35,982 bases of DNA. It comes from a virus. The notes below the pieces were generated by a model that was not told the DNA's origin, did no database searches, and saw only the letters and a program-made list of their open reading frames with translations. The DNA is taken from positions 1-35,982 of the IMG/VR virus record IMGVR_UViG_3300035698_028457, one strand, 5' to 3'. A program made the position numbers and the translations under genes. Below, in pieces: positions 1 to 35,158 of this stretch (the stretch's first letter is position 1; each line of letters begins with the position of its first letter).

Positions 1-127
1 CGATAAGATTCGCTCGTAGTGAATTATTCGAAGTCGATATTTTCCCAGAAGTCCATGATAGAAAATATACTGCGCTTGGAATTTGGGGAGTCGGAGGATT
101 GGAATATACTGCCATTCTAAACGGCAC
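1..127. repeat. Terminal direct repeat (circular join), left copy
   Basis: These 127 bases are identical to the last 127 bases of the window (35856-35982). An open reading frame continues in phase through both copies, which is what a circular or circularly permuted molecule gives when an assembler leaves one overlap. The length, 127, is a common maximum assembly k-mer, so this is more likely a contig-closure overlap than a biological terminal repeat. Unit genome length is 35,855 bp. Confidence 0.95.
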
Positions 128-1499
128 AAACACCACTTTCCATCTCTTCACTTCAAACTCAACTTTTAACATCACTACTGAAATTGAAAATTTATCTTAT
201 TGTATAATTGCAGGTGGAGCTGGTGGCGGAGGCTATGGTGCAGGTGGAGGAGGAGCTGGAGGAATGATTTGTTATTATGGTCAAACATTCGCTGTAGCCT
301 CATATCCTGTAGTTGTGGGAGTAAAAGGGATAGGTGCTGGAGACCAGTCAGATACTCGGGGAACCTCTGGAACTGCCTCAACTTTTAATGGAAGTTCTGC
401 AACAGGCGGAGGGGCTGGAGGTTCTGACGGTGGAGTAGATAATGGATTGGCTGGAGGCTCAGGTGGTGGAGGGGCTTTAGATGGTCCAGGTGGTGCTGGA
501 ACTGCTGGGCAAGGAAACGCTGGAGGAGCTGGTGCTCGTGCTCCGTTTGGAGGCGGTGGAGGTGGCGGTGCTAACGGAACTGGAGTCGCTCGGGCTTCTG
601 GTGCTACTGGAGGAGCTGGAAATTCTTCGGATATTAATGGAACAGTTCAAAATTATTCATGTGGAGGCGGAGGCGGCGGTTGGGTTGCTGTAGCTGGTGG
701 AGCAGCAGGATGCTCAGAGGGAGGGGCTGGAGGTTCTAATGGAGCTCGTGGAATAGATGCAAATTCAGGATATGGACATGGAGGCGGTGGAGGTTCTGCT
801 GGAGCATCAGGTGTAGGAGGGGGAGACGGAAGGGATGGAGCCGTCATAGTTAGATATGAAACTCCAGCAGCAGCGCATAATGCATTTATCAACATTACGA
901 ATGTTACAATTTATTCCTCAATAGGAGCTTTTCCAGATGGATGGATAGCCCTAAACATTACAGCACAAACAAATGATACAGGAACTCTAACGGCATATAT
1001 TAGTCACTTCAAAAACGGAGTAAATGAAACTGGAGATGCAAACTCAACTGAGATAACCAACAACACAAAACAAATGGTCTTCAATTTAACAAGTCTAACA
1101 GCAGATGACATACATAACTTCACAGTATATGTTGGGGATGAAACGAATATTTCAGGGATAAATATCACTCAAGGAATAACTGTGGCAGTAGGATGTGGAA
1201 CTCTAGATATTGCTAATAAAAATTATACCTTAACTAAAAATGTATCTATAGATGGATTGAGTTGTTTAACTATCTTATCTGCAAATATTAGCATAAACTG
1301 CGATGGATATTCAATCTTAGGGGACAATACAAGCGACACTTATGGAGTTAGTTCAAATCAATTAAATACTACTGTAGAAAACTGCACAATCCAAAACTTC
1401 TCAACGGGGATATCTCTTATAGATGGTGGCAGTTCAAATATTTTCAACAATACAATTAACACTACCTTTGAAGGCGGATACGGGGTGCGTGTAGGATGA
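1..1499 (+). CDS. Membrane-anchored Gly-rich/beta-helix surface protein, C-terminal part
   Basis: This is the continuation of the gene that starts at 35159; joined across the circle it encodes 731 residues, and this piece supplies residues 234-731. From about residue 304 to 516 it is a glycine-rich repeat region (GGAGGGG, GGGGGSAG), the type found in tail-fibre and spike proteins. A linker domain with several N-x-T/S sequons follows. Residues about 630-731 begin with a Cys-Gly-Thr-Leu motif and resemble the start of a NosD-like right-handed beta-helix (ISINCDGYSI, NTTVENCTIQNFSTG), a fold common in archaeal surface proteins. The helix is short and ends abruptly in GYGVRVG, so it may be truncated. 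The next gene overlaps by ATGA. A TTG at 99 could be taken as a start, but the frame is open upstream through the join, so it is not the start. A role in host adhesion is inferred. Confidence 0.85.
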   Translation, partial: IRFARSELFEVDIFPEVHDRKYTALGIWGVGGLEYTAILNGTNTTFHLFTSNSTFNITTEIENLSYCIIAGGAGGGGYGAGGGGAGGMICYYGQTFAVASYPVVVGVKGIGAGDQSDTRGTSGTASTFNGSSATGGGAGGSDGGVDNGLAGGSGGGGALDGPGGAGTAGQGNAGGAGARAPFGGGGGGGANGTGVARASGATGGAGNSSDINGTVQNYSCGGGGGGWVAVAGGAAGCSEGGAGGSNGARGIDANSGYGHGGGGGSAGASGVGGGDGRDGAVIVRYETPAAAHNAFINITNVTIYSSIGAFPDGWIALNITAQTNDTGTLTAYISHFKNGVNETGDANSTEITNNTKQMVFNLTSLTADDIHNFTVYVGDETNISGINITQGITVAVGCGTLDIANKNYTLTKNVSIDGLSCLTILSANISINCDGYSILGDNTSDTYGVSSNQLNTTVENCTIQNFSTGISLIDGGSSNIFNNTINTTFEGGYGVRVG

Positions 1500-3172
1500 A
1501 AACTATATTTTTATTACTACTCCTCGTCAGCCTAAGTTTTTCATGGTGGGATACTGATTGGAACTCGAGAATACCCTGCACAATTGACACAGTAATTACA
1601 TCTGGCTTGGCAAACTTCCCTGCAAGATGTGATTTCAACACAAGCAACTCAACACTTTGGAATACAGACACCTGCACTAATGTGAGATTCCTAAACAACT
1701 TTGAAAATGAAACTCTCAACTACGACTTAGATTCAAACGGTTCAACATTTTGTGGAAATGCAGACAACAATGCGACATTTTGGGTTAGCCTACCAGTAGC
1801 TTGGAACGCAACAGGGTTTAACGCATCTCACAACAACACAATTTGGGCTTATCTTGGAAATACGGCTGTTGCATCTGGGGAGAATGAAACTGGCGTGTGG
1901 CAGGATGCCAATTACGTTGGAGTATTCCACATGGGAGATACAGGAAATGCAACTTTAATTGATTCTGCTGGATGGAACAACCTCACAGAAACAGGGACTA
2001 TGGCTAAAAATACGACGTTAGGAAAAGGAATGATAGGACACGCAATGCAACTACCAAATAATGCTGGAAACTTTTATGGGGCACAAACAGGAGTGGGGAC
2101 TGGACTACCAACAGGAGCTAACCCTTCAACGCAAACCGCCTTGATTATTCCTTATGATATTTCTACATGGAGTGCTGTATATGGATTTGGAGATAATATA
2201 GGACATTCAAGAACTTACCTATTTGATGGTGCAGGAGGATTGGTAAATCTTGAATCATGGACTAATGACCTAACTATAGGAACATCAGCCACACAAGCAG
2301 TAGGAACTTATTTCTCAAAATTCTATCAGCACATAACTCAAACAGGAGCAACAACTCTTAGATTATCAAGGAATGAAACAACTGTAAATCCAACGGAAAT
2401 AACTTGGACTACTGGAACTGGTTGCTTTTTCATAGGAGCTGGATGTTCGCCAATAGGTCAAACATCTTATGGAGTTTTAGATGAATTAAGAATAAGAAAC
2501 GCAACCTCTAACACAACGTGGCTCGCATCAGAGTTTAATCAAACTTGGGTGATTGGAACTACAGAAGATAGAATTACAAACCGATATTATTTTAATATCA
2601 CAAACAACACAATCACAGCTGAAACTGGAACTGCAATCAATTTTGGGAATAATATTCTCAACTCAACAGCTTACCACAACAACATCACAGCTGAAACTTG
2701 GATAAACGATTCAGGACAAAATAATACTTTCAACACTACAGGGCAAGGAAATATTTACTATCAATCAGACGGAACTGCCTCGTGGGATGCTTATAGTGCA
2801 ACAACAGATGATGGGACAAACTGGTCAAATGCAGGAACGAATGTACCCTTTAATTCGGACTTAACCGAATGGATTGGAAATGGAAACGACTCACATCCAT
2901 TCACGGAAATAGCAACCCCTGCCCCAACAGACTCATGTACCCCTCCAGCTACAAACATAAACTGGACCATCAACTGTGCAGACAATTGCAACATCACCAA
3001 CTGGAGCTTCGATATGGGATTAGGGGGAATCTACTACAACGACACAGGGTACATTCACTTCTATAATGTATCTTACAACACTTCAGCTTTCACGCAAAAC
3101 GGAACAGGACAATGCTCAAGAATCTGTTGGGCCAATGGCGGAACCTGCCAGCAAACTGTGAGAAAACCATAG
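1496..3172 (+). CDS. Secreted DUF2341/LamG-like adhesion protein
   Basis: 558 residues. Residues 1-16 (MKTIFLLLLLVSLSFS) form a clear Sec signal peptide. The mature protein opens with WWDTDWNSRIPCTI, the hallmark of DUF2341, followed at about residues 130-340 by a concanavalin A/LamG-like stretch (YVGVFHMGDTGNATLIDSAG, then GMIGHAMQLPN). The C-terminal 80 residues are rich in cysteine. N-x-S/T sequons are dense throughout. DUF2341 plus LamG proteins are typical exported surface or adhesion proteins of archaea and some bacteria. The start ATG overlaps the previous stop by four bases, so the genes are translationally coupled. It lies directly before the connector genes, so it is part of the virion or infected-cell surface block. 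A secretion signal on a virion protein is unusual. Carbohydrate binding is possible but inferred. Confidence 0.8.
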   Translation: MKTIFLLLLLVSLSFSWWDTDWNSRIPCTIDTVITSGLANFPARCDFNTSNSTLWNTDTCTNVRFLNNFENETLNYDLDSNGSTFCGNADNNATFWVSLPVAWNATGFNASHNNTIWAYLGNTAVASGENETGVWQDANYVGVFHMGDTGNATLIDSAGWNNLTETGTMAKNTTLGKGMIGHAMQLPNNAGNFYGAQTGVGTGLPTGANPSTQTALIIPYDISTWSAVYGFGDNIGHSRTYLFDGAGGLVNLESWTNDLTIGTSATQAVGTYFSKFYQHITQTGATTLRLSRNETTVNPTEITWTTGTGCFFIGAGCSPIGQTSYGVLDELRIRNATSNTTWLASEFNQTWVIGTTEDRITNRYYFNITNNTITAETGTAINFGNNILNSTAYHNNITAETWINDSGQNNTFNTTGQGNIYYQSDGTASWDAYSATTDDGTNWSNAGTNVPFNSDLTEWIGNGNDSHPFTEIATPAPTDSCTPPATNINWTINCADNCNITNWSFDMGLGGIYYNDTGYIHFYNVSYNTSAFTQNGTGQCSRICWANGGTCQQTVRKP

Positions 3173-3210: not shown

Positions 3211-3897
3211 ATGGCAACGACGTATGCAACCAAGGAAGATGTCAATGATAGACTGCAGCAAGAAGGCTTTGATACAGACACCTCTCCGACTGGCGTAGAT
3301 GTAAATGAGATCATCAACGAATCAGAGGACATAATTGACAACACCACTTCTAGATCATGGCGCACAAGATATTCATCCGCATTAACAGGAGCTGCAACTG
3401 CTTCTCCCGATTACGAATATTACGATCTATGGAGTGAAAATGCAAGAGGCGGAGAATGGATGATCCCTCTAAAAAGAGAATATGTAAAAAACTTCGATTC
3501 AGATGAGAACGATGAGTTTTTGATTTGGGATGGATCAACTTATACGAATTACCTCTCAGACAAAACAGAAGGTCGAGCGAATGATTATTGGATTGAAAAC
3601 CAAAAAGGAATCCTTCACATAAGAGACTTTTCATTCTCATATACGCGAGAACTATTCCCTGTTTGGAATACAGACTCAGCGGTCAAACTAAAATATCGAT
3701 ATGGCGCGACAGAAGTCCCGGAAGGAATCAAAAGAGCAACGATTTATTTATCTGCAATCGAGATCCTAAGATCTCAAGACAAAACATTCAGATCCACCCA
3801 GGGTGGGGATGGGGTTATGATCCCAACAAAAATCGAGGAATTCCAAACTCAAGCAGATAAATTAATAGAGAGTTTCAGAAAGAGAGTTATATATTAG
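3211..3897 (+). CDS. Head-tail connector (adaptor) protein
   Basis: 228 residues. The start has a strong ribosome-binding site (GGAGGGGGGAAT then ATG). The N-terminus (YATKEDVNDRLQQEGF) and an acidic helix (NEIINESEDIIDNTTSRSW) resemble gp6/gp15-type connectors, which form the ring below the portal. The C-terminal part, including PEGIKRATIYLSAIEILRSQ, gives the second long helix of that fold. The protein is longer than the usual 100-120 residues because a beta-rich segment is inserted between the helices, as in several archaeal and actinobacterial tailed viruses. Its position immediately before a gp10-like protein and a tail terminator supports the call. It is recognised from pattern and order rather than from a catalytic motif. 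Confidence 0.75.
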   Translation: MATTYATKEDVNDRLQQEGFDTDTSPTGVDVNEIINESEDIIDNTTSRSWRTRYSSALTGAATASPDYEYYDLWSENARGGEWMIPLKREYVKNFDSDENDEFLIWDGSTYTNYLSDKTEGRANDYWIENQKGILHIRDFSFSYTRELFPVWNTDSAVKLKYRYGATEVPEGIKRATIYLSAIEILRSQDKTFRSTQGGDGVMIPTKIEEFQTQADKLIESFRKRVIY

Positions 3898-3910
3898 TGT
3901 GTGTGTTACG

Positions 3911-4372
3911 ATGATAGATCAACAGGCCTTGGACAAGTTCGAAGAGGACTTGAGGCAGGAAGCGATAGAGCTATTGCAGAATACAGCAGAGAGAACTTTT
4001 TATTTATCACAATTAAACCTTGTTGAAAACAAGTGGGAAATCGACTCATCAAAAGGATTCATCACAACCACCATCACGGATACTGGACAGCTCCTCAAAA
4101 CTGGCACATTACAAAAAACAGATGATGGGGCAATAGTCCAATACTCTATTGATTATGCCTCAGATATAGAATTTGGGACTCCACCTGGCACTCAGGCAGA
4201 CTTCGCATCAATTCGCAAATGGGTGATAAGAAAACTCGGAGTACCAAAAGTCAATGCAACCCAAGCGGCAGCAAATATTATCAAGCACATATTCGAGCAG
4301 GGAACCGATGCTCGCCCATTTTTGAGGCAAGCTGTAAATCAAGCAGTAGAGGAGATGAATAAGAAAACGTGA
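3911..4372 (+). CDS. HK97 gp10-like head closure/neck protein
   Basis: 153 residues from ATG 3911. An upstream GTG at 3899 in the same frame would add four residues (MCVT), but neither start has a clear ribosome-binding site. The helical N-terminus (EEDLRQEAIELLQNTAERTF) is followed by a beta-rich core with YASDIEFGTPPG and a C-terminal ARPFLRQAVNQAVEEM. The pairing of an (Y/E)FGT motif with a terminal RPFL helix is the signature of the HK97 gp10 family, which works at the head-tail joint. It sits between the connector and the tail terminator, the standard order. Confidence 0.8.
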   Translation: MIDQQALDKFEEDLRQEAIELLQNTAERTFYLSQLNLVENKWEIDSSKGFITTTITDTGQLLKTGTLQKTDDGAIVQYSIDYASDIEFGTPPGTQADFASIRKWVIRKLGVPKVNATQAAANIIKHIFEQGTDARPFLRQAVNQAVEEMNKKT

Positions 4373-4376
4373 TCTT

Positions 4377-4832
4377 ATGGCAGCCGAACCGACAAAATGC
4401 ATGAAAGAATTGCTCGATGATAATTGGGATGAAACCAATACAGATAATCATCTCCCAAAAGTTGCAAACATGGAAGATCCGCAAGATAAAAACGTCAAGG
4501 ATTATGTGAATGTTGCAAGAGATGACTACATCAAAATATATGAAGTCGGGCCAGAAGGCAGAGATTCCTCCGGAATAGGAGCTGCACTCACGGATCGCAA
4601 AAATATAATTGCAATCGACATCATGTGCGGAATCTCAAAAAACCACGCCTACAAAGTAAAAGCAGAAGCATTGAAAGTCATTGAGGACAACTTAAATGCG
4701 CCTGGAGATAATTTCCAATACATAGATCCTAAAATTAATATCAAGCCTTTTAGTGGCACAAGATTAAATCGATTATGGAGATGGGTAATAGAAGTCACTC
4801 TCGTACAAACGGGAGCGACGTTGGGGAGTTGA
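4377..4832 (+). CDS. Tail terminator/completion protein
   Basis: 151 residues. The start ATG follows an archaeal-type GTGATC ribosome-binding site by two bases. It has the alpha/beta make-up of tail terminators: a middle segment DIMCGISKNHAYKVKAEALK, where strand is followed by helix, and a last strand RLWRWVIEVTLVQTG. Proteins of this type cap the tail tube and join it to the neck. The call rests mainly on position, directly between the gp10-like protein and the tail tube gene, and on size. No catalytic motif is expected. Confidence 0.65.
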   Translation: MAAEPTKCMKELLDDNWDETNTDNHLPKVANMEDPQDKNVKDYVNVARDDYIKIYEVGPEGRDSSGIGAALTDRKNIIAIDIMCGISKNHAYKVKAEALKVIEDNLNAPGDNFQYIDPKINIKPFSGTRLNRLWRWVIEVTLVQTGATLGS

Positions 4833-4837
4833 AAATT

Positions 4838-5773
4838 ATGGCAATTTTAGTAAATGACAATCAATATTTAGTGTATGCAAACGAAGTCGCTTATGGAACA
4901 GCCCCTGCAACCATCAATACATTTCTTGGGAAAAATCAAACAAATACTCTTGAATTTACAAACAACCTAATCTCTGGCGGTGGAATCGGTTGCGGACGCG
5001 GAGTCACAGATATCGAAGCTGGAGACTTTGCCCCTAATGTATCAACCTCATTTGATGTGACTGATGGGAGCTTTTTGGAACTCGCCCTCGGATCTGCATC
5101 TGGATCAGGCACAAGTGGAGATCCTTATTTATATGCTCTTGCGAATTCACTCCCGAGCTCTACTCTACAGAGTGGATTTAATGTCCCAACAACCTCCAAA
5201 AAACTAAATGTAACCGGATGCTACGCAGATATGACAAAAGTATCTCTGAAAAAATCACAACCAGTCAAAGCAGATATGTCCTTTAAGGGATATACAGTCG
5301 TGAAATCTGATACATGGCAAACTCTGAGTTGCTCATCTGAGGAAAAATATGTCTTTACTGCAGGCAGTTTTGAATCTCCAACAGATACAACTAGGGCACA
5401 AATCAACGGCGCAGATATCGAGATCGCAAATAATATAATCCGAGATCCGAATCTTGGCGGAAGAATAAATGCTCTTTCTCCTGGACCGAGAAAAATCAAT
5501 CTAACTGTCGATGCAAAAACAATCGATGAATATTTCATGAGTTTAGGGCTCGATGGAACTGCAACAGGAGATACAGTCGCAACAGGACAATTAACCACCC
5601 TTGCAACCGCAACCCTAAAACTGACAAAAGCATCAGCAGCTAAATCGATTGAGATTGAGGCTCAAGTTCTTTTAACAAACAAATATACATCGAGAAACGA
5701 CATCGGAGCATTGGCAGTTCAAACAGCAACAATGGAAGCCAAAACCATAAGTGCGACAGAAATTCGTACATAA
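4838..5773 (+). CDS. Major tail tube protein
   Basis: 311 residues from ATG 4838, preceded by GGGGAGTTGA, which fixes this start; a longer frame opening at 4775 would overlap the previous gene by 58 bases and lacks a ribosome-binding site. The protein is beta-rich with the N-terminal pattern NDNQYLVYANEVAYGTAPAT and the internal FTNNLISGGGIGCGRG typical of tail tube proteins of long-tailed viruses. It polymerises as hexameric rings around the tape measure. It is followed by the two-frame tail chaperone genes and the tape measure, which is the conserved order and strengthens the call. Confidence 0.8.
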   Translation: MAILVNDNQYLVYANEVAYGTAPATINTFLGKNQTNTLEFTNNLISGGGIGCGRGVTDIEAGDFAPNVSTSFDVTDGSFLELALGSASGSGTSGDPYLYALANSLPSSTLQSGFNVPTTSKKLNVTGCYADMTKVSLKKSQPVKADMSFKGYTVVKSDTWQTLSCSSEEKYVFTAGSFESPTDTTRAQINGADIEIANNIIRDPNLGGRINALSPGPRKINLTVDAKTIDEYFMSLGLDGTATGDTVATGQLTTLATATLKLTKASAAKSIEIEAQVLLTNKYTSRNDIGALAVQTATMEAKTISATEIRT

Positions 5774-5789: not shown

Positions 5790-6149
5790 GTGAGTGAGAC
5801 AGAAAGAAAACCGTGGGAAGATTTGCTTGCGGGTGGGGAAACTCAAAAAGTATCAATCAAATCTCCAAAAGGAGCAACCTTCGATTTTGAATTGAAGATG
5901 CCAACTTTTCCACAACTAGAAGAGGCAAAAAGTGATTGCTACTTAATGGACTCTCAAACAGGAGAAGTCACAAAAACATTGCATGGACGTTGGGCAAGGA
6001 ATAAACTTTTGCTATGTGTAGTAAAAAGTCCATTCCCACCTGAAACACAAAAACAAAATCTACTAAACTTACATCCTCAAGTTGGGAAACAACTCAACGA
6101 AGAGATCAATAAAATGCTGGCGACGCAGGAGGAAATCCCAAAAAAGTGA
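5790..6149 (+). CDS. Tail assembly chaperone, gpG-like
   Basis: 119 residues from GTG 5790, with GAGGTGA upstream. It lies between tail tube and tape measure genes, the place of the lambda gpG/gpT pair. In that system gpG and the frameshifted gpGT fusion coat the tape measure before tube polymerisation and are absent from the virion. The sequence is a small acidic/basic helical protein (KMPTFPQLEEAKSDCYLMDS, then LNEEINKMLATQEEIPKK). Its final codons CCA AAA AAG TGA contain an A AAA AAG slippery heptamer, and a -1 shift there enters the next frame exactly, giving a 193-residue fusion. Confidence 0.8.
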   Translation: MSETERKPWEDLLAGGETQKVSIKSPKGATFDFELKMPTFPQLEEAKSDCYLMDSQTGEVTKTLHGRWARNKLLLCVVKSPFPPETQKQNLLNLHPQVGKQLNEEINKMLATQEEIPKK

Positions 6150-6190
6150 GGGAGGCGATGAGTGGGATTGCGGGGGCAAACTTCATCGCC
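6127..6190 (+). promoter_or_regulatory. -1 programmed ribosomal frameshift signal
   Basis: Three elements line up. AGGAGG at 6127-6132 is an internal Shine-Dalgarno-like sequence. The heptamer A AAA AAG lies at 6140-6146, in the correct phase, immediately before the zero-frame TGA (6147-6149). After a 7-nt spacer, an 8-bp perfect stem GGCGATGA (6154-6161) pairs with TCATCGCC (6183-6190). This is the same order as the E. coli dnaX signal. A -1 slip continues at GTG 6146 into the next open frame. The elements are seen directly; their use in vivo is inferred. Confidence 0.8.
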
Positions 6191-6370
6191 GGAAGAGCAA
6201 TTAAAAGAATAAGACTCCTCGGAATGGGAGTCAGTCGAGAAGAGATTGATAAATTAGATATTTGGGAAGCAGAAAGCCTTCTTGAATATGATTATATGTT
6301 GAAAAAAATGGAAAGAATTCGTTGGGAAAATCTGTATAAGGTGATCTCGAATCTAGGGGGGAAAGTATAA
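6146..6370 (+). CDS. Tail assembly chaperone extension, gpT-like (frameshift product)
   Basis: 74 codons read from 6146 in the -1 frame. It is probably made mainly as the C-terminal part of a 193-residue fusion with the upstream chaperone, as in lambda gpGT. Independent starts exist (GTG 6146, ATG 6158), but GTG 6146 is 13 nt from the nearest ribosome-binding-like sequence and GGAGG before ATG 6158 is too close. The chain is basic and helical (AGRAIKRIRLLGMGVSREEI, then DYMLKKMERIRWENLYKVIS), fitting a segment that binds the tape measure. Its stop overlaps the tape measure start as TAATG. Confidence 0.75.
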   Translation: MREAMSGIAGANFIAGRAIKRIRLLGMGVSREEIDKLDIWEAESLLEYDYMLKKMERIRWENLYKVISNLGGKV

Positions 6371-7221
6371 TGGCAGATCTAAAAGTTGGATTTGAACTTG
6401 GTCGAGGATTCTCGGACTTCGCATCTGAGATCCGGAGCGCAAAGCAATCTGCAGGCTCACTACTAGAGGATACTGGGAGGCTTGGGGATTCTGTTTCAGG
6501 TCTAGCAAATGATTTCAAAGGCTTCGGATTAGCAGCTGCAGGAGCCTTGGCAGGCATTGCAGCCATTTCTCCATCTCTTGCCGGACCACTTGCTCAACTC
6601 GAGATCGAATTTTTTGGAATCGCAGACACTCTTGGGAAAGAACTCAAACCTGAATTTGATGCATTCGTTGGAGTTGTGAAGGGGGTCGGGGATTTTCTCA
6701 GAGAAAATCAATGGGCGCGAGAACTTACAGCTGATCTATTATTGATGGGAACTGTGGTCACTTTATCCGGACCTCTCGCGAGCGGACTAGGAGCAATCAC
6801 CAAGAACTTTGCTCTACTCTCCAAATTTGCACTCGCGGGGATCGCAATAGCTGTCACATATACTATTGTAGAAGAGGGGGGGAAAGCCCTTGAGAATCTA
6901 TCGACTGAAGTATTCGGACCTAATTTATCAGACAAACAAACTCAACAAGTACAATCAGAAGGACTCCCCTCAAGCATACCTTTATCTGGAGGAATAAACT
7001 CAATCAGTAGAGCTCTCTCAATAGCCAGACTATCTGGAGAAAATCTGATAAACGAAACAACAGGTGGTCTTTTAGATGACTTCCAAGCTCAAAATCGAGC
7101 TAATCCATTTAGACTTTTAGATCCGGGCGGGGCAGCAATAAGCTCAGTTGGTAAAGCAATATTTATTCAGATAATGGATTCATTAGGAGCAACTACGGAT
7201 TCAATGACATTAACGGAGTGA
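6370..7221 (+). CDS. Tape measure protein (short)
   Basis: 283 residues. It starts on a TAATG overlap with the chaperone frame. The N-terminal 80 residues are amphipathic helix (GFSDFASEIRSAKQSAGSLL), followed by alternating glycine/alanine-rich hydrophobic helices (GLAAAGALAGIAAISPSLAG, GTVVTLSGPLASGLGAI, ALAGIAIAVTYTIV), as in tape measure proteins that later cross the host membrane. Tape measures are often 600-1500 residues, so this one is very short. By the usual rule of about 0.15 nm per residue it predicts a tail near 40 nm. No lysozyme or peptidase domain is visible. Identification rests on position and composition. Confidence 0.75.
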   Translation: MADLKVGFELGRGFSDFASEIRSAKQSAGSLLEDTGRLGDSVSGLANDFKGFGLAAAGALAGIAAISPSLAGPLAQLEIEFFGIADTLGKELKPEFDAFVGVVKGVGDFLRENQWARELTADLLLMGTVVTLSGPLASGLGAITKNFALLSKFALAGIAIAVTYTIVEEGGKALENLSTEVFGPNLSDKQTQQVQSEGLPSSIPLSGGINSISRALSIARLSGENLINETTGGLLDDFQAQNRANPFRLLDPGGAAISSVGKAIFIQIMDSLGATTDSMTLTE

Positions 7222-18290: not shown

Positions 18291-18830
18291 ATGACTAAAG
18301 AATGGAAGAAATCTAAAAAAATAGAGATAACTGTCAAAGGTACAAATCTTCTCGAACTCAAACAATTTGAAAACTTTCAAGGAAATCTAAAAGAAATCTC
18401 AGAAGAGGCTTTGGAAAAACTCAAAAACAATATCATCAAGAACGGATTTTGCGCACCCATATTTGTTTGGTCCGGAAAGAAATTTATTTTAGATGGACAC
18501 CAAAGAATCATTGCAGTAAAAAGTCTAATCGAAGATGGATACGTTTTAGAGAATAACGAGCTCCCATACATTGAGATCGAAGCCAAAGACAAAAAACAAG
18601 CAGCCGAATTAGTTTTGTCTTACAATTCCCAATACGGAGAAATCACCGAAGATGGATTAAAAGAATTCAAAGACAAATTCGAATTAGACCTCAGCGAATT
18701 AGATAATACAATAAATATCCCGATAGGCTTGGATGTGGATGTGAATCTCACAGAAGAACCAAACGAGAAAGATCTCTCTGAAGAATTGCCCACAAAAAAC
18801 AAATGCCCAAAATGTGAGTACGAATGGTAA
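18291..18830 (+). CDS. ParB N-terminal-domain-like protein
   Basis: 179 residues. The N-terminal 110 residues have the ParB/Srx order: ELKQFENFQGN, then KNNIIKNGFCAPIFVWSGKK, then the signature FILDGHQRIIAVKSL (a GHxR box, here GHQR), then ELPYIEIEAKD and AELVLSYNSQYG. The C-terminus carries a CPKCEYEW knuckle. This layout is common in virus genes next to DNA methyltransferases, where the domain may act as a nuclease or CTP-dependent clamp rather than in partition. It overlaps the methyltransferase start by seven bases, so the two are made together. Confidence 0.75.
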   Translation: MTKEWKKSKKIEITVKGTNLLELKQFENFQGNLKEISEEALEKLKNNIIKNGFCAPIFVWSGKKFILDGHQRIIAVKSLIEDGYVLENNELPYIEIEAKDKKQAAELVLSYNSQYGEITEDGLKEFKDKFELDLSELDNTINIPIGLDVDVNLTEEPNEKDLSEELPTKNKCPKCEYEW

Positions 18831-19816
18831 AACCAACAGTTATCAGTTTATTCTCTGGATGTGGCAGATCTTCTTTAGGATACAAACTCGCAGGGTACAG
18901 AGAATTACTCGCAATCGATTTCGATGCAAATGCAGTTGAAACATTCAAACTCAATTTTCCAGAAGTCGAATGCTGGAAAGCAGATATTACACAAATCACT
19001 GGCAAACAAATAATGGATGCAACAAAACTCGAACCAGGGCAACTAGATATTTTAGATGGGAGTCCGCCCTGTCAGGGATTCTCAACAGCTGGAAAAAGAA
19101 AAGTAACGGATTCGAGAAATCGATTATTCGAATCATACGTGAGACTAATTCAAGAACTCAAGCCAAAAATCTTTGTCATGGAAAACGTCTCCGGAATGGC
19201 AAAGGGAAAAATGAAAGGACTGTTTAATGAAATCCTCAAGACATTCAAAAGTCTAAATTATGAAGTACGCGCAAGGCAACTAAATGCAAAATACTATGGA
19301 GTACCACAATCAAGACAGAGGATCTTCTTCATAGGCGTAAGGAAAGACCTAAATACGCCACCTCTATTCCCAACACCATCTCCAAAACTAATAACAGTAA
19401 AACAAGCATTAGAAAAACTCCCACAACAAAACACAGAACTAAAACACCCCTCAGGGAAATTAATATCATTGACAACAAAACTCAAGCAAGGAGAAGAAGC
19501 AAGCAAATATCACATAAAAGGAAACTATTTCAATGTCAAAAAACTCCATAATAATAAACCTTCTATGACTGTGACAAAACTATTTAGCGATGGCGCGGCC
19601 GGACTAATCCACCCTCTCAAAAATAGATTTTTAACAATTCCTGAATGCAAACGGATCTGTAGTTTTCCAGATGATTTCAAATTAATAGGGTCCTTTAAAG
19701 ATAAGTGGGCAAGGTTGGGGAATGCCGTGATGCCTCTCCAGATGAAGGCTATTGCGCAAACTCTCAAAAAAGGAATTTTAGATGATTATTATGCCAAAAC
19801 CCAGTCAAAAGGATAA
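18824..19816 (+). CDS. DNA (cytosine-5-)-methyltransferase
   Basis: 330 residues, full length. Motifs are in order: I, SLFSGCGRSSLGY (residues 8-20), for S-adenosylmethionine; IV, GSPPCQGFS with nucleophile Cys83; VI, MENVSGM with Glu120; VIII, QSRQRIFFIG; IX and X, IPECKRICSFPDDF and WARLGNAVMP. It transfers a methyl group to C5 of cytosine in a target that cannot be read from sequence. No matching restriction enzyme is visible, so it is likely a solitary viral enzyme protecting against host restriction or marking the genome. It overlaps ParB upstream and the small terminase downstream. Confidence 0.92.
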   Translation: MVKPTVISLFSGCGRSSLGYKLAGYRELLAIDFDANAVETFKLNFPEVECWKADITQITGKQIMDATKLEPGQLDILDGSPPCQGFSTAGKRKVTDSRNRLFESYVRLIQELKPKIFVMENVSGMAKGKMKGLFNEILKTFKSLNYEVRARQLNAKYYGVPQSRQRIFFIGVRKDLNTPPLFPTPSPKLITVKQALEKLPQQNTELKHPSGKLISLTTKLKQGEEASKYHIKGNYFNVKKLHNNKPSMTVTKLFSDGAAGLIHPLKNRFLTIPECKRICSFPDDFKLIGSFKDKWARLGNAVMPLQMKAIAQTLKKGILDDYYAKTQSKG

Positions 19817-21638: not shown

Positions 21639-21932
21639 TTGGAAAAACTAAAAGATATGTTGCCAGAGAAAAGAGCATTTGAGAAAGTCATGAGACAACT
21701 TCCTAAAGCAAAAATGCATGAGTGTAGTGAGGCGTCAGATGCTCAGACTGATTATGGATATTTGCCATTAAGAGAAACTCTCTTTGGAGATGTTTTTAGA
21801 GATGATTCTGTATTTCTTCTCAGTCCAAAGATGCCTACATTCGGTTCCTGTTTTAGTACGCCTGACATTGTCCTCATAAAAAAAACAGATAAAAATGCAA
21901 TAGGGAAACTTCAGAGATGGAAGAAACAATAA
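21639..21932 (+). CDS. Hypothetical protein, 97 aa
   Basis: 97 residues from TTG 21639, with GGTGA five bases upstream deciding this start. The first part is helical and basic (EKLKDMLPEKRAFEKVMRQL) and the second strand-rich (DSVFLLSPKMPTFGSCFS, then PDIVLIKKT). No family is recognised. It overlaps the large terminase start by 16 bases and is thus coupled to it. Confidence 0.6.
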   Translation: MEKLKDMLPEKRAFEKVMRQLPKAKMHECSEASDAQTDYGYLPLRETLFGDVFRDDSVFLLSPKMPTFGSCFSTPDIVLIKKTDKNAIGKLQRWKKQ

Positions 21933-23383
21933 TAGAATTCAAGCCTACAGAAAAACAGAGGATTGCTTGGAGCTACCTACAGGACAAGGAAACAATCGAG
22001 CTCTTATTCGGTGGCGGAGCAGGAGGAGGCAAAACAACTCTTGGTTGCGTTTGGATCGCATCAATGGCAATGCAGTATCCAGGCACAAGATATCTGATTG
22101 GGAGATCAGTTCTCAAGGCACTCAAAACCTCAACCCTCCTAACTCTCTTTGAAATCTTTGAGGACTGGGGACTAAAGCGCGATGATCACTATACGTATAA
22201 TGCATATTCGGATGTCATCACATTTCAAAACAAATCAGAAATCCATTTGAGAGATCTAAAATTAAATCCATCCGATCCAGAGTTCGATGCATTGGGCTCA
22301 ACAGAATACACAGCAATTTTTGTCGATGAGAGCTCGCAGATTATTAAGAAATGTTATGAAGTCCTCACATCAAGAATGAGATACAAGCACACAGAATACA
22401 AACTAATTCCAAAAATTCTCTTATGCACAAATCCCAACAAGGGCTTCGCGTATCATGATTTTTACAGACCATGGACGAAAAAGAAACTCCCAGAGTACAA
22501 GAAGTTCGTGCAAGCCCTCGCAAAAGACAACCCACATCTTCACCCCGACTACATCAAAACATTAGGGCGATTGTCCGGAGCAACAAGAGAACGTCTCAAA
22601 GAAGGCAACTGGGAATTCAGCGATGATCCCTCAGTACTCATGGACTACGAGATGATAACCAACATCTTCACAAACACAGCCCAAGACCAAGAACACAAAT
22701 ACATCACTTGCGATCCCGCCCGATTCGGAAAAGACACGGCAGCCTTTTTCTTATGGAAGGGACTACAAATCATAAAAGTTCTAAGACTCCCAAAAACAGG
22801 ACACGATGAAATAGAGAACCAACTCCAAAGTTGGGCACAATCTGAGGGGGTGCCACGTTCTCGAATAATATCTGATGAGCCGGGGGCGGGCGGAATAATC
22901 GACCACCTAAAAGGGATCAAGGGATTCATCGGTGGATCATCTCCTCTCTTAATCGGAGAAGAAAAAGTCTCAGTATATTCAAATCTCCGAGCGCAATGCT
23001 TTTTCAAACTAGCTGAGAAAGTAAACAACGCAGAAATAGGGTGCTATGAGAAAATAGATCCCGAAATAAAGCAAATGATAATTGAGGAGCTCGAGCAAGT
23101 AAAACAAAAAAACATCTACGAGACAGACCAAAAACTCGCAATCATAAAGAAAGAAGAAATGAAGGAAAATCTCCCAAGACAACGATCTCCGGACTTAGCA
23201 GATGCAATCAGCATGAGAATGTATTTTGAGCTAGAGCCTCCAATCCAGATCACAATCCTCGGATGGGGTGGGGGTCAACAACAAATTCAAAAAGAAGAAG
23301 ATATAGAAAAGAAGAAGAAGAATCCACATTTAACCGATCCGACTTCACAAGACGATGAGCTCACAACTCGTTTATTTGAATAG
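21917..23383 (+). CDS. terL: Terminase large subunit (ATPase and nuclease)
   Basis: 488 residues. The ATPase half has the Walker A motif GGGAGGGKTT (residues 32-41), Walker B AIFVDESS (about 134-141) and a coupling motif LLCTNPNKG. The nuclease half has the three acidic motifs of the RNase H-like fold: ITCDPARFGKD (about 265), ISDEPGAGG (about 320) and DLADAISMR (about 427). The protein translocates genomic DNA into the prohead and cuts it. It is followed by portal-MuF as expected. A circularly closed assembly fits headful packaging but does not prove it. Confidence 0.95.
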   Translation: MEETIIEFKPTEKQRIAWSYLQDKETIELLFGGGAGGGKTTLGCVWIASMAMQYPGTRYLIGRSVLKALKTSTLLTLFEIFEDWGLKRDDHYTYNAYSDVITFQNKSEIHLRDLKLNPSDPEFDALGSTEYTAIFVDESSQIIKKCYEVLTSRMRYKHTEYKLIPKILLCTNPNKGFAYHDFYRPWTKKKLPEYKKFVQALAKDNPHLHPDYIKTLGRLSGATRERLKEGNWEFSDDPSVLMDYEMITNIFTNTAQDQEHKYITCDPARFGKDTAAFFLWKGLQIIKVLRLPKTGHDEIENQLQSWAQSEGVPRSRIISDEPGAGGIIDHLKGIKGFIGGSSPLLIGEEKVSVYSNLRAQCFFKLAEKVNNAEIGCYEKIDPEIKQMIIEELEQVKQKNIYETDQKLAIIKKEEMKENLPRQRSPDLADAISMRMYFELEPPIQITILGWGGGQQQIQKEEDIEKKKKNPHLTDPTSQDDELTTRLFE

Positions 23384-23417: not shown

Positions 23418-25499
23418 ATGGGTATGCTTGATAAAGCAGTAAGGGCAGTATGGAAACAGCTGCCAATAAATATCACGGACCAACTTCTCCGAGAATCAAC
23501 AAGCAAAGTAGAGAGTACAGTCCCGACAACACTTTTTTTAACTGGGAGCGAACTTGGACTCACAAAAGCACAAGCAACTCATAATCGATATGGGATCACT
23601 CTCTCAGCTCTTCAACGATGGATCATGAGAAAGAATCACAGTTTAGTATCTGCAGTTCATAATGCAATCGTCAAGCAAGCAAAAAAAGTAGAGCTTGTCG
23701 TTTGCCCAATCGATGAAACTCTCCCCTTTAACGAGGAAACAAAAAAGAGAATGGAAGAATTCATGGAGACGGGATTCGGACATCTTGGAGAGAAAATGTT
23801 TAGAGGGCATATGCTCGACACGAAGAAATGGTACGGAGATGCATTCGCAGAGATAGTTTTTGATTCAGAAACCAAAGAGCCTATTTTTGTAAATTACCTT
23901 ACATCTGAAACAATCAACATCAAGCCAGATGAGCACGGATTTATTGAATCATTCCCTCAAGTAATCAGGGGCGCATTAGTTCATGACTTCCCGCCTGAAA
24001 ATATTATGCGCCTTGTTGAACACGAGGACGAATACTCTTTGTTTGGATTCTCTGATTTAGACTCTCTTTGGACTGTTCTATTTATGGATGTGGTCGCAAC
24101 AGACCTCCAAACAAAAAAACTTCTAAATGACGCAGGCTCTGCAGGAGTCTTTGTATTTCCAAAAGGAGCAACACCTGACGAGCTCTACGCCCTAAGAAGA
24201 CTCTATTTATTACAGCACAAGCAAAACCCTGGACTCCCTATCTTCATGGATAGACTTGAAAATTTCATTAAAACTGGAATCGATATGAAAGATATGGATT
24301 GGAAAGAATTGCACCAATACGTCAAGGAAAGAGTAATGTCCGTTTATTCAGTTCTCCCAATGCAAGTCGCTGTCGTGGAGACAGGCAAGCTCGCGAATCC
24401 AGAACAGCAGTTGGAAATAGGAGAAGAATACATCCGGCAAGAATTAGAAATCATGCAGGGTGCATACAACCGAGACCTCACAAAATACTTTGAGGACAGC
24501 GAAAACCTCATGTTTAAATTCACAGAACTAGAGCCGAAGGTCGAAGCTCTGCAAAAGGCTGCCGATTTAGAAAACAAAAAGATGCAGACCGCGCAGATGA
24601 TGGCGAATATTCCAAAGACCTACACTAAGAATGAAATAAGAGAAATGACTGATTTCGATCCACTAGAAGATGGAGGGAATGAATTCCCCGAGCAACCAGC
24701 TCCCGATCTCTTTGAGGGATTGTCTGGAAACATTGAAGGCCAGAAAGCAGAAGAAGATAAAAAAAAAGTTGGAATATTCAACTGCAAAATGTATCTCCAA
24801 CAGAAACTCGACAGAAGAAAAGCAGCACTAAAATTTCTAATGGACCTGAGATCCGAATACAAAAACTTCTCAAAAGAAACAGCAAGCCTGATAAAAAAGG
24901 AAAAGTCAAGCAAGTTCTCAAAAAAGGGCGCAGCAGAACTACAGGCAAATCTAACAAAGCTACTTAAAACTCTTGGAATAAACCTGACAGCGATTACAAA
25001 TGAAAACGTCAAAGCAATCTTCGAGAGCTCCAAAGAGCAAGTGGGAGCCAAACCTCAACCCAAAGACGAAGCAGAAATCGAGAAAACCCTGACTGCAAAG
25101 AATGGTGGCATCGATGGAATCAAAGACTTCACTCAAGCCCAAAGAGAAGGGATCAAGGAAGTAATCGACAGAAGCCTAAAAGAAAGCATGACACTCGACC
25201 AAACTGTAAAAGAGATGCGCAAATTCTCTAACGCCGAAACCTACAGGCTCGAGCGCATCGCCCGGACCGAAACAACAAGATTCGCCAATCAAGGTCGCTT
25301 CGCAGGATACAAAGACCAAGAAGAGGAAGCTGGAAAGAAATTCAAATTTGATTGGGTTGGTCCTAATGATAACCGCACAACAGACATCTGCAAGCAAATA
25401 GTGAAAAGAAATCCCTATACTTTGAGAGGGATCACTAAAGCAACTAACGACGGACTGCCACATATTAACTGCAGACATGTAGCTGTGAGGCGGGTATGA
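23418..25499 (+). CDS. Portal protein fused to a MuF head-morphogenesis domain
   Basis: 693 residues; GGGGGATAGATCAC precedes the ATG. Residues about 1-420 are portal-like: HNAIVKQAKKVELVVCP, KKWYGDAFAEIVFD, the wing/stem region and LFMDVVATDLQTKKLLND. Residues about 440-590 are a charged helical linker. Residues about 590-693 are a MuF domain: LERIARTETTRFANQGRFAG, KFDWVGPNDNRTTDICK and GLPHINCRHVAVRRV with the final Cys-Arg-His. The dodecameric portal is the DNA entry channel; MuF proteins are minor capsid or ejected proteins. The fusion places one MuF domain per portal subunit. Confidence 0.9.
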   Translation: MGMLDKAVRAVWKQLPINITDQLLRESTSKVESTVPTTLFLTGSELGLTKAQATHNRYGITLSALQRWIMRKNHSLVSAVHNAIVKQAKKVELVVCPIDETLPFNEETKKRMEEFMETGFGHLGEKMFRGHMLDTKKWYGDAFAEIVFDSETKEPIFVNYLTSETINIKPDEHGFIESFPQVIRGALVHDFPPENIMRLVEHEDEYSLFGFSDLDSLWTVLFMDVVATDLQTKKLLNDAGSAGVFVFPKGATPDELYALRRLYLLQHKQNPGLPIFMDRLENFIKTGIDMKDMDWKELHQYVKERVMSVYSVLPMQVAVVETGKLANPEQQLEIGEEYIRQELEIMQGAYNRDLTKYFEDSENLMFKFTELEPKVEALQKAADLENKKMQTAQMMANIPKTYTKNEIREMTDFDPLEDGGNEFPEQPAPDLFEGLSGNIEGQKAEEDKKKVGIFNCKMYLQQKLDRRKAALKFLMDLRSEYKNFSKETASLIKKEKSSKFSKKGAAELQANLTKLLKTLGINLTAITNENVKAIFESSKEQVGAKPQPKDEAEIEKTLTAKNGGIDGIKDFTQAQREGIKEVIDRSLKESMTLDQTVKEMRKFSNAETYRLERIARTETTRFANQGRFAGYKDQEEEAGKKFKFDWVGPNDNRTTDICKQIVKRNPYTLRGITKATNDGLPHINCRHVAVRRV

Positions 25500-31027: not shown

Positions 31028-34000
31028 ATGAAATTTACACTATGGATTTTATTGTTTGTGGCGATGATTGGCGCCCTATTTGCTTATGATTTCAATGGTC
31101 CAACTACTTTCGGAAATAATTCTACAGACACAGCCTGGATCGGAGGAAGTGGGGGAGTTCTAAATGTAACTGGAAACATCACAATCAACAATACCCATGT
31201 ATGCCTTGAAGATGGAACTCACTGCCAGGAAGACATCGATACAAAATGGAATATCACTGGGAGCAACTACAACATAAACAACTCTAATATTCTGGATTGG
31301 AACGAAACAAAGGGAGATGCTAGATACGTTGAAGTTTCAGGAGACACCATGACTGGAGATCTAAACATGGGCGACAATTCCATTTTTAATATTTTCCACA
31401 TAGTCGCAGATACATTCAACGCAACAAATATCTTTTTAGGTGGGGTAAATCTCTCAGCTACAATCGTGGACATTCAAACCCAAGTAAACGGAATTTATAC
31501 AAACGTGACAGCAACTCAAACACAGCTCGCGCTTCAGTACCTAAACATCACAATTAATCAAGATGATATTGACACTCTCAATACAACAATAACCTCTCTA
31601 AACAACGGAACAGGATGGAACATCACAGGATCAGACTACTTGATAAACGATTCGAATATCCTAGATTGGAATGAGACAAAGGGAAATGAGACCATCGATG
31701 CGCGAAATACAGCAACAATGAATAATATTTCTCTCCTAGATGTGGCTGGAAATTTAGGCAACTGGAGCGCGGACAAGGGAAACCTCAACAATCTCTCACT
31801 TGCAGATATTGAAGAGAACTTGGGGAACTACAGCTCAGACAGCCCGTGGATAAATTCCAGCTTGACCGCAATCAACGCAACAGCAGAAACAAACTCACAA
31901 CGTATAACTGATGTAAATACCTCCGTTGGAGATCTACAGGACGCAAACAATACAGCGAATACAAGGATTGACGACTTAAACTCCTCAGTAGGAGATCTTC
32001 AGACCGCAAACGAATCCATGAACACGCGCGGAGACGATCTTAATTCCAGCATCGGAGACTTACAAACTGCCAATGAGACAGCCAATACAAGAATAGATGA
32101 TCTAAATACTACTGCAGCGATCCGGGCTTTAGGATTCGGAGCATTAGATGAAGACGAAACAATTAATGGAGCCTGGACCTTTATCGGAAATGTAATCATG
32201 GGCAACGTCACAATCGCGAATGTGACTGCAGAAAATATCACTGGAGATCTAGTCCCATCAATAACTGATACCTTCACTCTCGGCAATTCATCTCACCAAT
32301 GGAAAAATCTGACAGTCTCAGACAGGGCTATCATTGGGGGGGAAGACGTTATTGCAAAAATAGATCTAGTCAATTCCTCTGTAGGAGACTTGCAAGCTGC
32401 GAATGTTTCCATGAACACAAGGGGCGATGATCTAAACTCAAGCATCGGGGACTTACAAACCGCAAACGTGAGCATGAATACAAGAGGCGACGATTTAAAT
32501 TCATCTATACTTTCTGTTCAGTCTGATGCGGCAGGATGGGTAAATACCTCAGAAAATACAACAACAATCCTCGACGTTATAATCCAACAACTGGAAATCA
32601 CAAATAAATCTCATAATGGACTTTGGAACGGAAGTTTTAATCTCTACCCAACAAACAACGAATACAATAATAATCTATTATTCGCAGTTTATGGAAATGG
32701 AACTGATGGAGTATCCGTCCCTCACTTTTGGATTCAAGGGGGAAATAGCTCTCAAGCCTCAGGAATTTCAAGGTCATTCATGATTATAAATGAAAATTCA
32801 ACACTACAAAATACAACCAATATCACCAGTTGTGTATCTTACATGGATTCTGTAAATGAACTTCTAAAAATTGATTGCAATACAACAACAACTGGAGCAG
32901 ATTTATTGGTAGGGGATGATTTGCAAGTAGTCGGAGATGTATATGTAAAAGACTCAGACGGAGAATGGCATTTCCTAACAAGAACATTGGGAGAACTAGA
33001 TAGACTATATGACGATATTCTTTTCAATCAAATAAACGACAGCTTGGTTGCAAATAATTTCTCATATGTAACTTCAGAAGGAGACACAATTGTTGTGAAT
33101 CTAGATAAAAATGAGACAATCCTCGCAAAAACAGAAGATAGTGTTTTGGTAACTCTTGGAACAGATACAACTCCTCAAATGAATTTTGTATCATATCAAG
33201 ACATGGGAAATCCAACTTTAACCGTTGATGCTGCTCAACCGAGTGTAGAAAGTGCGGATGTTGCACAAATGCTTTTAGGTTCTAGTGGAAATGTATATGG
33301 GTATATTGCAGGTTCTGCAACAAATTACGAGTTTCTAAAAGGAGTTTATAATAGATTTTATGACGAAGGGGCTTTGTATGTGGATGGTTTTGTTCCAAAT
33401 GCAACTGCAACAACATTTAACATCACTTCAGGCTCTTACAAAATTCTCCTAAGCACGATTGAAACCGAGAACAATCTCACATTTGATGGGGATGGGTATT
33501 TCATCATATTAAGTAATGGCACTTTTATAGAATCAATCGATTTGGCAGATATAACTCAATACTCTGATGGGACAACAATTGCAGCGGATAAATCTTTCAA
33601 TGTCGTATGGGGTATAGTTCCAATCAATTCGACACACACAAGATTAATGGCTATCGTTCAAGATTACCCTGGAGCAGGAAAAGAATACAAGAATGCAAAT
33701 CAGGCAGAAGAGGATAAATATAGAAAAACTAATCTCTTCCCTGCGAATTCATTCTTAAAAAAACTATTTCTTCCAATTGCAAGAACGATTATTGATTTAG
33801 ATAGCTCTGAATTTGAACCGTTCAAAAATGCTGATTACTATTTGGATTTAAGAGGAACACAAGGAACATTCGGAGCGTCGCCAGCCTCACCTCTCTCATA
33901 TACTAACGGGACTGGAATTAATTTGACTGGTTCTACATTCTCTTTGAACTATTGCGGATTGAATGAAATTCTAAAATGGGATGGGACCTATTGGATATGT

Positions 34001-35158
34001 TCTGCAGACTCAGGAAATACACTTGCTGAAATAGCAGCAAACATTGGTAATTGGTCAGAAGAAAATGTTTCAATACAAACAGCAATAACTGATTTGAGAG
34101 CAGCAAACTCTTCTTTGAATGACACCTTAAGTTCAATAGGAAACTACTCAGCCGACAGCGCAGAGATCAACACGAGTATAGATGACCTGAGAGCAGCAAA
34201 CGCATCCTTAAACGATTCCCTTACTTCTCTGGGAAATGCCACACTCGCCCGGACAGGTGATTGCGCTGCTGGATGGATCGTCATGAACACAACCATAGAT
34301 GGAGTAGAATGTGTTGAGCAATCTGGAGGGCTTACAATATCTCAAATCGCAGCAAACTTGGGAAATCTCTCTGAAGAGAATACTAGTCTAAGGAGTGTGT
34401 ATTATGGTAATATCTCTGACAATAGAGATTCAAACACAACCACGAACACGCGCATAGATGACTTAAACACTACGGCAGATGGACTCTATTCAAACCTAAC
34501 TGATGTGCAAACAAACAGTACCTTCACAACTGGAACTACAACAGACACCTATTGGTGCAGATGGGATGATGGAAATACTGAGATCGATTGCGATGTTGAA
34601 CCAGTATCTACAGATGCGAATGTTACAGGAAATGGAACTCCCTACTATTTGGCATCCTGGCTTAATACCTCAACATTGTATGCACTAAACAACATCACAA
34701 ATATGACGGGCTACCTATGGTCTTCACTTATCGGAGAGCCCCCCTATTACGACAATATGACTGACCTGAGAACTTCCAACACTACGACAAATACTCGAGT
34801 AGATGATCTCAATACTACTGCCGATGGACTATACTTGAACTCAACCGACTTGCGGACATCTAACGGAACCACCAACACGAGAATAGATGATTTGAATACA
34901 AGCGCAGATGGGCTATACCTGAACATTTCAAATAATAACGCATCTATAGTCGTAACCAACACGAGAGTTGATAACCTAAACACAACCGTTCAGGGAAGAA
35001 CGAATGCTACAAATACAAATCTATTTGAAAACTCAACAAGTATAAACTCCGGACTAAACATCACATTTGGAAATATGACCATCGGGAGGTTCAATTCCAC
35101 TTGTGGAGGCAGTTGGAGAGGAGACGGAACTGAGATTAACGATTTGATTTGTGATTAG
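31028..35158 (+). CDS. Large secreted-type fibre protein with coiled-coil repeats
   Basis: 1376 residues. Residues 1-19 (MKFTLWILLFVAMIGALFA) look like a signal peptide. Next comes a fibre-type shaft start, DARYVEVSGDTMTGDLNMGDN. Residues about 294-361 and 445-496 carry 21-residue repeats of the form TRIDDLNSSVGDLQTANES, three heptads each. Residues about 1138-1321 carry 28-residue units (TRVDDLNTTADGLYLNSTD), four heptads each. These predict long trimeric coiled coils between globular beta domains. The N-x-S/T sequon count is very high. The C-terminus has two Cys residues (STCGGSWRGDGTEINDLICD). This is a probable adhesin, but the secretion signal is unexpected. Confidence 0.8.
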   Translation: MKFTLWILLFVAMIGALFAYDFNGPTTFGNNSTDTAWIGGSGGVLNVTGNITINNTHVCLEDGTHCQEDIDTKWNITGSNYNINNSNILDWNETKGDARYVEVSGDTMTGDLNMGDNSIFNIFHIVADTFNATNIFLGGVNLSATIVDIQTQVNGIYTNVTATQTQLALQYLNITINQDDIDTLNTTITSLNNGTGWNITGSDYLINDSNILDWNETKGNETIDARNTATMNNISLLDVAGNLGNWSADKGNLNNLSLADIEENLGNYSSDSPWINSSLTAINATAETNSQRITDVNTSVGDLQDANNTANTRIDDLNSSVGDLQTANESMNTRGDDLNSSIGDLQTANETANTRIDDLNTTAAIRALGFGALDEDETINGAWTFIGNVIMGNVTIANVTAENITGDLVPSITDTFTLGNSSHQWKNLTVSDRAIIGGEDVIAKIDLVNSSVGDLQAANVSMNTRGDDLNSSIGDLQTANVSMNTRGDDLNSSILSVQSDAAGWVNTSENTTTILDVIIQQLEITNKSHNGLWNGSFNLYPTNNEYNNNLLFAVYGNGTDGVSVPHFWIQGGNSSQASGISRSFMIINENSTLQNTTNITSCVSYMDSVNELLKIDCNTTTTGADLLVGDDLQVVGDVYVKDSDGEWHFLTRTLGELDRLYDDILFNQINDSLVANNFSYVTSEGDTIVVNLDKNETILAKTEDSVLVTLGTDTTPQMNFVSYQDMGNPTLTVDAAQPSVESADVAQMLLGSSGNVYGYIAGSATNYEFLKGVYNRFYDEGALYVDGFVPNATATTFNITSGSYKILLSTIETENNLTFDGDGYFIILSNGTFIESIDLADITQYSDGTTIAADKSFNVVWGIVPINSTHTRLMAIVQDYPGAGKEYKNANQAEEDKYRKTNLFPANSFLKKLFLPIARTIIDLDSSEFEPFKNADYYLDLRGTQGTFGASPASPLSYTNGTGINLTGSTFSLNYCGLNEILKWDGTYWICSADSGNTLAEIAANIGNWSEENVSIQTAITDLRAANSSLNDTLSSIGNYSADSAEINTSIDDLRAANASLNDSLTSLGNATLARTGDCAAGWIVMNTTIDGVECVEQSGGLTISQIAANLGNLSEENTSLRSVYYGNISDNRDSNTTTNTRIDDLNTTADGLYSNLTDVQTNSTFTTGTTTDTYWCRWDDGNTEIDCDVEPVSTDANVTGNGTPYYLASWLNTSTLYALNNITNMTGYLWSSLIGEPPYYDNMTDLRTSNTTTNTRVDDLNTTADGLYLNSTDLRTSNGTTNTRIDDLNTSADGLYLNISNNNASIVVTNTRVDNLNTTVQGRTNATNTNLFENSTSINSGLNITFGNMTIGRFNSTCGGSWRGDGTEINDLICD

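Follow-up and report, generated by a model that had tools for sequence, protein, structure and literature searches.

A candidate programmed -1 ribosomal frameshift site in the tail assembly chaperone gene of a tailed virus that probably infects archaea

The virus record IMGVR_UViG_3300035698_028457, whose 35,982 bases were analyzed computationally and are referred to here as the window, carries two overlapping open reading frames (ORFs) between its probable tail tube and tape measure genes. The first of these, ORF1, ends at a slippery sequence that lies between an internal Shine-Dalgarno (SD)-like element and a stem-loop, and the second, ORF2, continues in the -1 frame. Together these features constitute a candidate site for programmed -1 ribosomal frameshifting, and they are arranged as follows.

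5790-6149, plus strand: ORF1, GTG start, 119 amino acids, zero frame; predicted tail assembly chaperone of the G type, located in the tail tube/tape measure interval and matching an archaeal G profile
6127-6132, plus strand: internal SD-like AGGAGG, 7 nucleotides (nt) upstream of A AAA AAG (its GGAG core 8 nt upstream)
6137-6143, plus strand: second slippery heptamer, C CCA AAA, in phase and overlapping A AAA AAG
6140-6146, plus strand: slippery heptamer A AAA AAG, in phase (ccA AAA AAG)
6146-6370, plus strand: ORF2, the putative T-type extension; 74 codons long, in the -1 frame, which stays open upstream as far as 6113, with VREAM directly after the slip
6147-6149, plus strand: TGA, zero-frame stop of ORF1, directly after A AAA AAG
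6154-6190, plus strand: stem-loop, putative stimulator, with an 8-bp outer stem (6154-6161 with 6183-6190) plus inner pairs
6158-6160, plus strand: ATG in the ORF2 frame, within the stem; a candidate start if ORF2 were initiated separately

The 3′ end of ORF1 reads CCA AAA AAG TGA, which places A AAA AAG in phase with the zero frame, and a -1 slip at this position leads directly into ORF2, joining 119 and 74 residues into a predicted fusion of 193 amino acids. Downstream, the sequence GGCGATGA (6154-6161) is the perfect complement of TCATCGCC (6183-6190), and this stem begins 7 nt after the heptamer. A preliminary description of this DNA had listed AGGAGG, a 7-nt interval, A AAA AAG, TGA, a 7-nt spacer and an 8-bp stem, and we recovered every one of these elements, as well as the phase and the predicted fusion, exactly where it had placed them. 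It had overlooked C CCA AAA at 6137-6143, the ATG at 6158-6160 and the SD spacing of the virus's own gene starts. In the combined sequence CCC AAA AAA G, a slip on either heptamer would yield the same 193-residue protein with the joint P-K-K-V-R-E. The -1 frame is open from 6113 to 6370 and overlaps ORF1 by 37 nt; since it opens only at 6113, any slip must be confined to this overlap. The AGGAGG element has a pairing energy of -10 to -11.5 kcal/mol, which falls in the top 0.7% of the windows scored.

This combination of features is not readily produced by chance. Codon shuffling of ORF1 placed an in-phase A AAA AAG among the final 12 codons with a frequency of 0.85%, and a canonical heptamer of any kind with a frequency of 11%. 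The chance of a perfect 8-bp stem (loop of 3-30 nt) at one of six allowed spacings is approximately 0.2%, and the stem region has a folding energy of -18.4 kcal/mol, whereas its dinucleotide shuffles fold at -10 to -11 (z -3.3 to -4.1). Among the 373 canonical heptamers present in the window in any phase and on both strands, this one ranks first for SD and hairpin energy combined, and it is the sole heptamer with both SD pairing of -10 kcal/mol or lower and a hairpin of -15 kcal/mol or lower. We rejected a chance origin on the heptamer ranking and on the codon-shuffle and stem odds; chance is untenable because the top-ranked heptamer also happens to lie at a gene end in the chaperone slot.

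The resemblance to Escherichia coli dnaX that had been proposed for this site is well founded, in that A AAA AAG, the upstream SD-like stimulator and the downstream stem-loop are found in both systems and in the window all lie within functional range. The spacing between SD and heptamer is 10 nt in dnaX, and thus the 7 nt in the window is shorter. Furthermore, the dnaX shift leads to a shorter product (gamma) at near 50%, whereas a shift in the window would lead to a longer product, presumably at a low rate.

An archaeal G profile built from eight relatives was compared by hhalign with 64 ORFs of the window. ORF1 ranks first among the 64, with an E value of 9.9e-5 over 76 collinear columns, and it has no PHROG or Pfam match; judged by its profile match, ORF1 is a distant homologue of archaeal virus tail chaperones. 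ORF2 begins with VREAM, which agrees with a [VL]RxA[VIM] motif present at the expected place in the relatives. This motif was noticed post hoc, and the pattern [VL]R.A[MIV] has four occurrences in the 51,389 six-frame residues of the window. An AlphaFold model of ORF1, made with no alignment, is poor (pLDDT 50), and that of ORF2 consists of helices (pLDDT 78), an insufficient basis for searching by fold. The order tail tube, ORF1, ORF2 and tape measure matches that of HCTV-5, HCTV-2 and HHTV-2, with the tape measure call in the window derived from weak matches. The identity of the ORF pair as a tail chaperone, also claimed previously, is upheld by this gene order, by the homology of ORF1 to archaeal G proteins and by the junctions of the relatives.

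These junctions were compared in the tail regions of 12 distinct viruses, comprising the window, four haloviruses and seven uncultivated contigs. The contigs derive from a portal profile that yielded 30 contigs; among those examined, eight carry an adaptor homologue, and seven of these eight gave a chaperone junction. The compared viruses are not all independent, since HHTV-2, G008 and G012 are close. All 12 regions exhibit the order tail tube, ORF1 and ORF2, with ORF2 in the -1 frame, and nine carry a canonical heptamer at the junction. This heptamer is A AAA AAG in the window, A AAA AAC in HCTV-2, G006, G007, G009 and G017, G GGA AAC in HCTV-1 and G001, and G GGA AAG in HCTV-5. HCTV-5, HVTV-1, HCTV-1 and HCTV-2 have an annotated joined chaperone at the corresponding map position. 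In eight of the 12 viruses, moreover, the extension opens with the [VL]RxA[VIM] motif immediately after the slip, as VREAM in the window, VRAAI in HCTV-5, LRKAV in HCTV-2, LRAAV in HHTV-2, LRRAV in G001 and LRQAV in G007, G008 and G012. Together, these junctions suggest that a tail-chaperone frameshift is a general trait across the archaeal-type tailed viruses of this group.

Members of the HHTV-2 group (L005, 13324-13360; L060, which is G008; and L064, which is G012) carry GAG GAA AAC TGA in place of A AAA AAC and retain the -1 frame and LRxAVR; in HHTV-2 the annotation splits the chaperone into two separate genes. The contigs that match the portal best over its full length (G002, G003 and G005) were set aside, as they have no canonical -1 junction and little else in common with the window. 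A -1 ORF pair in the Methanofastidiosa virus vir519 (16703-17149/17152-17316) is without the needed overlap, is probably not a chaperone, and was likewise rejected. Single-protein scans of viral contigs with ORF1, tail tube, adaptor, tail hub and major capsid protein returned no close relatives, and a terminase scan of viral contigs gave two short contigs.

The two putative stimulators were assessed across the same junctions by scoring SD pairing over the 18 nt upstream of the heptamer and by ranking the scores within each locus. Strong SD ranks are found in the window (top 0.7%), G012 (2.2%), G001 and G017 (2.7% each), G008 (5%) and HCTV-5 (6.5%), and strong hairpin ranks in the window (0.3%), G009 (1.3%), G012 (2.3%), HCTV-1 (3.7%) and G017 (8%). 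With the window left out, Fisher tests on these partly related viruses give p 0.001 for SD elements and p 0.03 for hairpins. The SD enrichment is modest and the stem enrichment is weak, and both are suggestive only, because the viruses are partly dependent and because glutamate-rich gene ends written with GAG raise the number of SD-like matches. In G001, AGGAGG lies exactly 7 nt upstream of G GGA AAC, the same spacing as in the window, and a hairpin follows; G017 has an SD, A AAA AAC and a 10-bp stem. We tentatively entertain the idea, which at present seems rather doubtful, that selection might maintain the three-part cassette of SD, heptamer and stem in the tail-chaperone genes of archaeal tailed viruses beyond the cultured haloviruses, and that archaeal ribosomes might use SD-anti-SD pairing in elongation for -1 slippage as bacterial ribosomes do. 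If so, G001 and G017 would be further examples of a three-part archaeal cassette. In the open-licence literature, a coverage that leaves out at least one of the two primary 2013 halovirus papers, we found no description of an SD-like stimulator at an archaeal-virus frameshift site.

Taken together, these observations are most consistent with programmed -1 frameshifting by ribosomes within the tail-assembly-chaperone gene of a tailed virus most likely infecting archaea, a reading to which we assign a probability of roughly 0.86. The majority of ribosomes would terminate at the TGA at 6147-6149 and produce the 119-residue G-type chaperone. A minority would be delayed by base pairing between AGGAGG and the 16S rRNA tail and by the stem-loop that begins 7 nt further on; these ribosomes would slip one base back on CCC AAA AAA G, read GTG as valine, and complete the 193-residue GT-type fusion. 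If lambda gpG/gpGT is a guide, the tape measure protein may then be coated by many G and few GT proteins, with the T part recruiting tail tube subunits. The lambda and window genes are alike in their location just upstream of the tape measure gene, in the -1 direction, in a short T extension and in a slip at the end of G. The slippery heptamer of lambda is G GGA AAG. In contrast to lambda, the window has A AAA AAG, a strong SD, an 8-bp stem and a probable archaeal host. The frameshift in the lambda tail assembly chaperone was described by Xu, Hendrix and Duda (2004) and is reviewed in PMC5009743.

Several observations weigh against this interpretation. First, ORF2 has no significant match to a T profile, including one built from haloviruses only, and therefore its putative homology rests on place and motif. 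Second, the junctions of HHTV-2, G008 and G012 are non-canonical. Third, the stem and SD are not retained in every relative. Fourth, two scans of genome contigs for close relatives found nothing, and the relatives compared are too distant to reveal covariation of the stem. Fifth, a second lysine tRNA (CUU) is common in archaea, and such a tRNA could make AAG less slippery than it is in E. coli. Finally, ORF2 has possible starts of its own, namely a GTG that overlaps the stop of ORF1 (GTGA) and the ATG at 6158, which is preceded 6 nt upstream by GAGG (6148-6151).

These starts are the basis of the main, serious rival to frameshifting, in which a ribosome ending at the TGA at 6147-6149 would re-initiate at GTG 6146 or ATG 6158, the latter masked by the stem until ORF1 is translated. 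Overlaps of 4 nt like that of GTGA occur at four other gene pairs of the window (starts 10691, 16685, 29735 and 30801), and SD sequences near gene ends may serve coupled restarts (Atkins et al., PMC5009743). Sites of the GGAGGTGATC type precede gene starts of this virus with their core mostly 8-10 nt upstream, whereas the core of AGGAGG is 14 nt from GTG 6146, and the ATG at 6158, for all its nearby GAGG, is buried in the stem. In all 11 relatives the slip is followed by CTG, CTC, CTT or GTC, and never by ATG, GTG or TTG; their first methionine occurs 3 to 122 residues into the extension, mostly inside the domain. The most likely role of GTG 6146 is therefore that of a valine codon read during elongation. 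Translational coupling also leaves unexplained why an in-phase heptamer lies at this exact place, and so we regard it as an unlikely sole explanation; frameshifting and coupled initiation could nevertheless operate together.

Two further explanations were rejected on the junctions of the relatives. The run of six As at 6140-6145 might permit RNA polymerase to add an A and thereby create some mRNA with both ORFs in a single frame, as occurs with Thermus dnaX (PMC5009743), and the resulting protein would be identical, including the P-K-K-V-R-E joint. The relatives with G GGA AAC or G GGA AAG have just three As, and thus polymerase slippage cannot be the common mechanism; it would also leave the SD and stem no role, making it a very improbable account of the window. 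Less probable still is an assembly or sequencing error, wherein an A has been lost from the sequence and the two ORFs are truly one gene. The site is indeed known from a single metagenomic contig and includes a homopolymer run, but the other 11 viruses, isolates among them, have an identical -1 break at this position, and an error would not explain the SD and stem that flank it.

Programmed frameshifting by the ribosome, which we favor, has been proposed for similar viruses. It was predicted in HVTV-1, HCTV-1, HCTV-2 and HCTV-5 (Sencilo 2013; Pietila 2013; cited in PMC5009743 and PMC8211752), and a -1 chaperone frameshift was predicted in Hardycor1 (PMC7911831). The haloviruses HCTV-1, HCTV-2, HCTV-5 and HVTV-1 share with the window a homologous adaptor, neck and G protein, the gene order and the -1 junction, and the heptamer of HCTV-2 (A AAA AAC) is likewise followed directly by TGA, with a short stem 8 nt on. 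Relative to these viruses, the window has a T extension shorter than most, an AT-richer genome and a stronger set of SD, heptamer and stem. The lone archaeal -1 frameshift reported as experimentally shown is that of Saccharolobus solfataricus fucA1, at about 10% in vitro (PMC8211752). It resembles the window in being an archaeal -1 slip with an A AAA AAT heptamer and a putative stem-loop, and it differs in being a cellular gene with rare codons instead of an SD (PMC8211752).

A separate observation concerns HRTV-29, HRTV-4 and HFTV1 (L016, 30840-30880; L017, 1444-2053; and L018, 1426-2041), which share GGG TTT CGC AAA and in which a conserved second ORF (EYALV..DATNKTA..) occupies the +1 frame. 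This junction resembles the TTT-CGC site at which a +1 shift has been described in HF1-group viruses, and the annotation of the HRTV-29 chaperone as -1 is probably wrong.

The window ends carry a 127-bp direct terminal repeat (1-127 and 35856-35982), and therefore the record is probably a complete circular map. The presence of terminase, portal, protease, capsid, adaptor, neck and tail genes indicates a tailed virus, and its head and tail genes include the following.

3211-3897, plus strand: head-tail adaptor, halovirus homologue (E 1e-10, 25-31% identity)
3899-4372, plus strand: neck/tail-completion protein, phrog_5; HHTV-2 gp43 (E 3e-5)
4838-5773, plus strand: probable major tail tube gene (ORF opens at 4775), assigned by map position relative to HCTV-5, HCTV-2 and HHTV-2
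6370-7221, plus strand: probable tape measure protein, from weak PHROG tape-measure matches (E 0.04-0.98) and position
23418-25499, plus strand: portal with Mu gpF-like C-terminal part, the same arrangement as in HHTV-2 and HCTV-2

No sequence match was found for the tail tube gene, whose assignment comes from position only. All ten named matches of the portal are viruses of archaea, as are all ten of the adaptor, each of the latter a halovirus. As the preliminary description had proposed, the virus thus likely infects archaea, given that among named records the portal and adaptor match archaeal viruses alone. The terminase (21917-23383) is nearest to those of Flavobacteriia phages (43% identity), and the packaging module, as far as these matches tell, is a mosaic of a Flavobacteriia-phage-like terminase with an archaeal-virus-like portal and adaptor. 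Elsewhere, a ParB-like protein is encoded beside a C5 cytosine DNA methyltransferase (18291-19816). Long Asn/Thr/Ser-rich proteins with signal peptides, many N-x-S/T sequons and repeats such as NSSVGDLQ are encoded at 1-3172 and 31028-35982; those tested have no Pfam match, and these secreted-looking proteins are likely to be virion surface or receptor-binding proteins.

The principle of -1 frameshifting in archaeal tailed viruses is not new, and the window represents a well-formed and unusually complete example of it. Seven junctions from uncultivated viruses are now added to the few predicted in haloviruses. The window site is a compact and strong candidate with separable parts, namely the SD, two overlapping heptamers and the stem, and its value is that of a test system for whether archaeal ribosomes follow the bacterial rules of -1 slippage.
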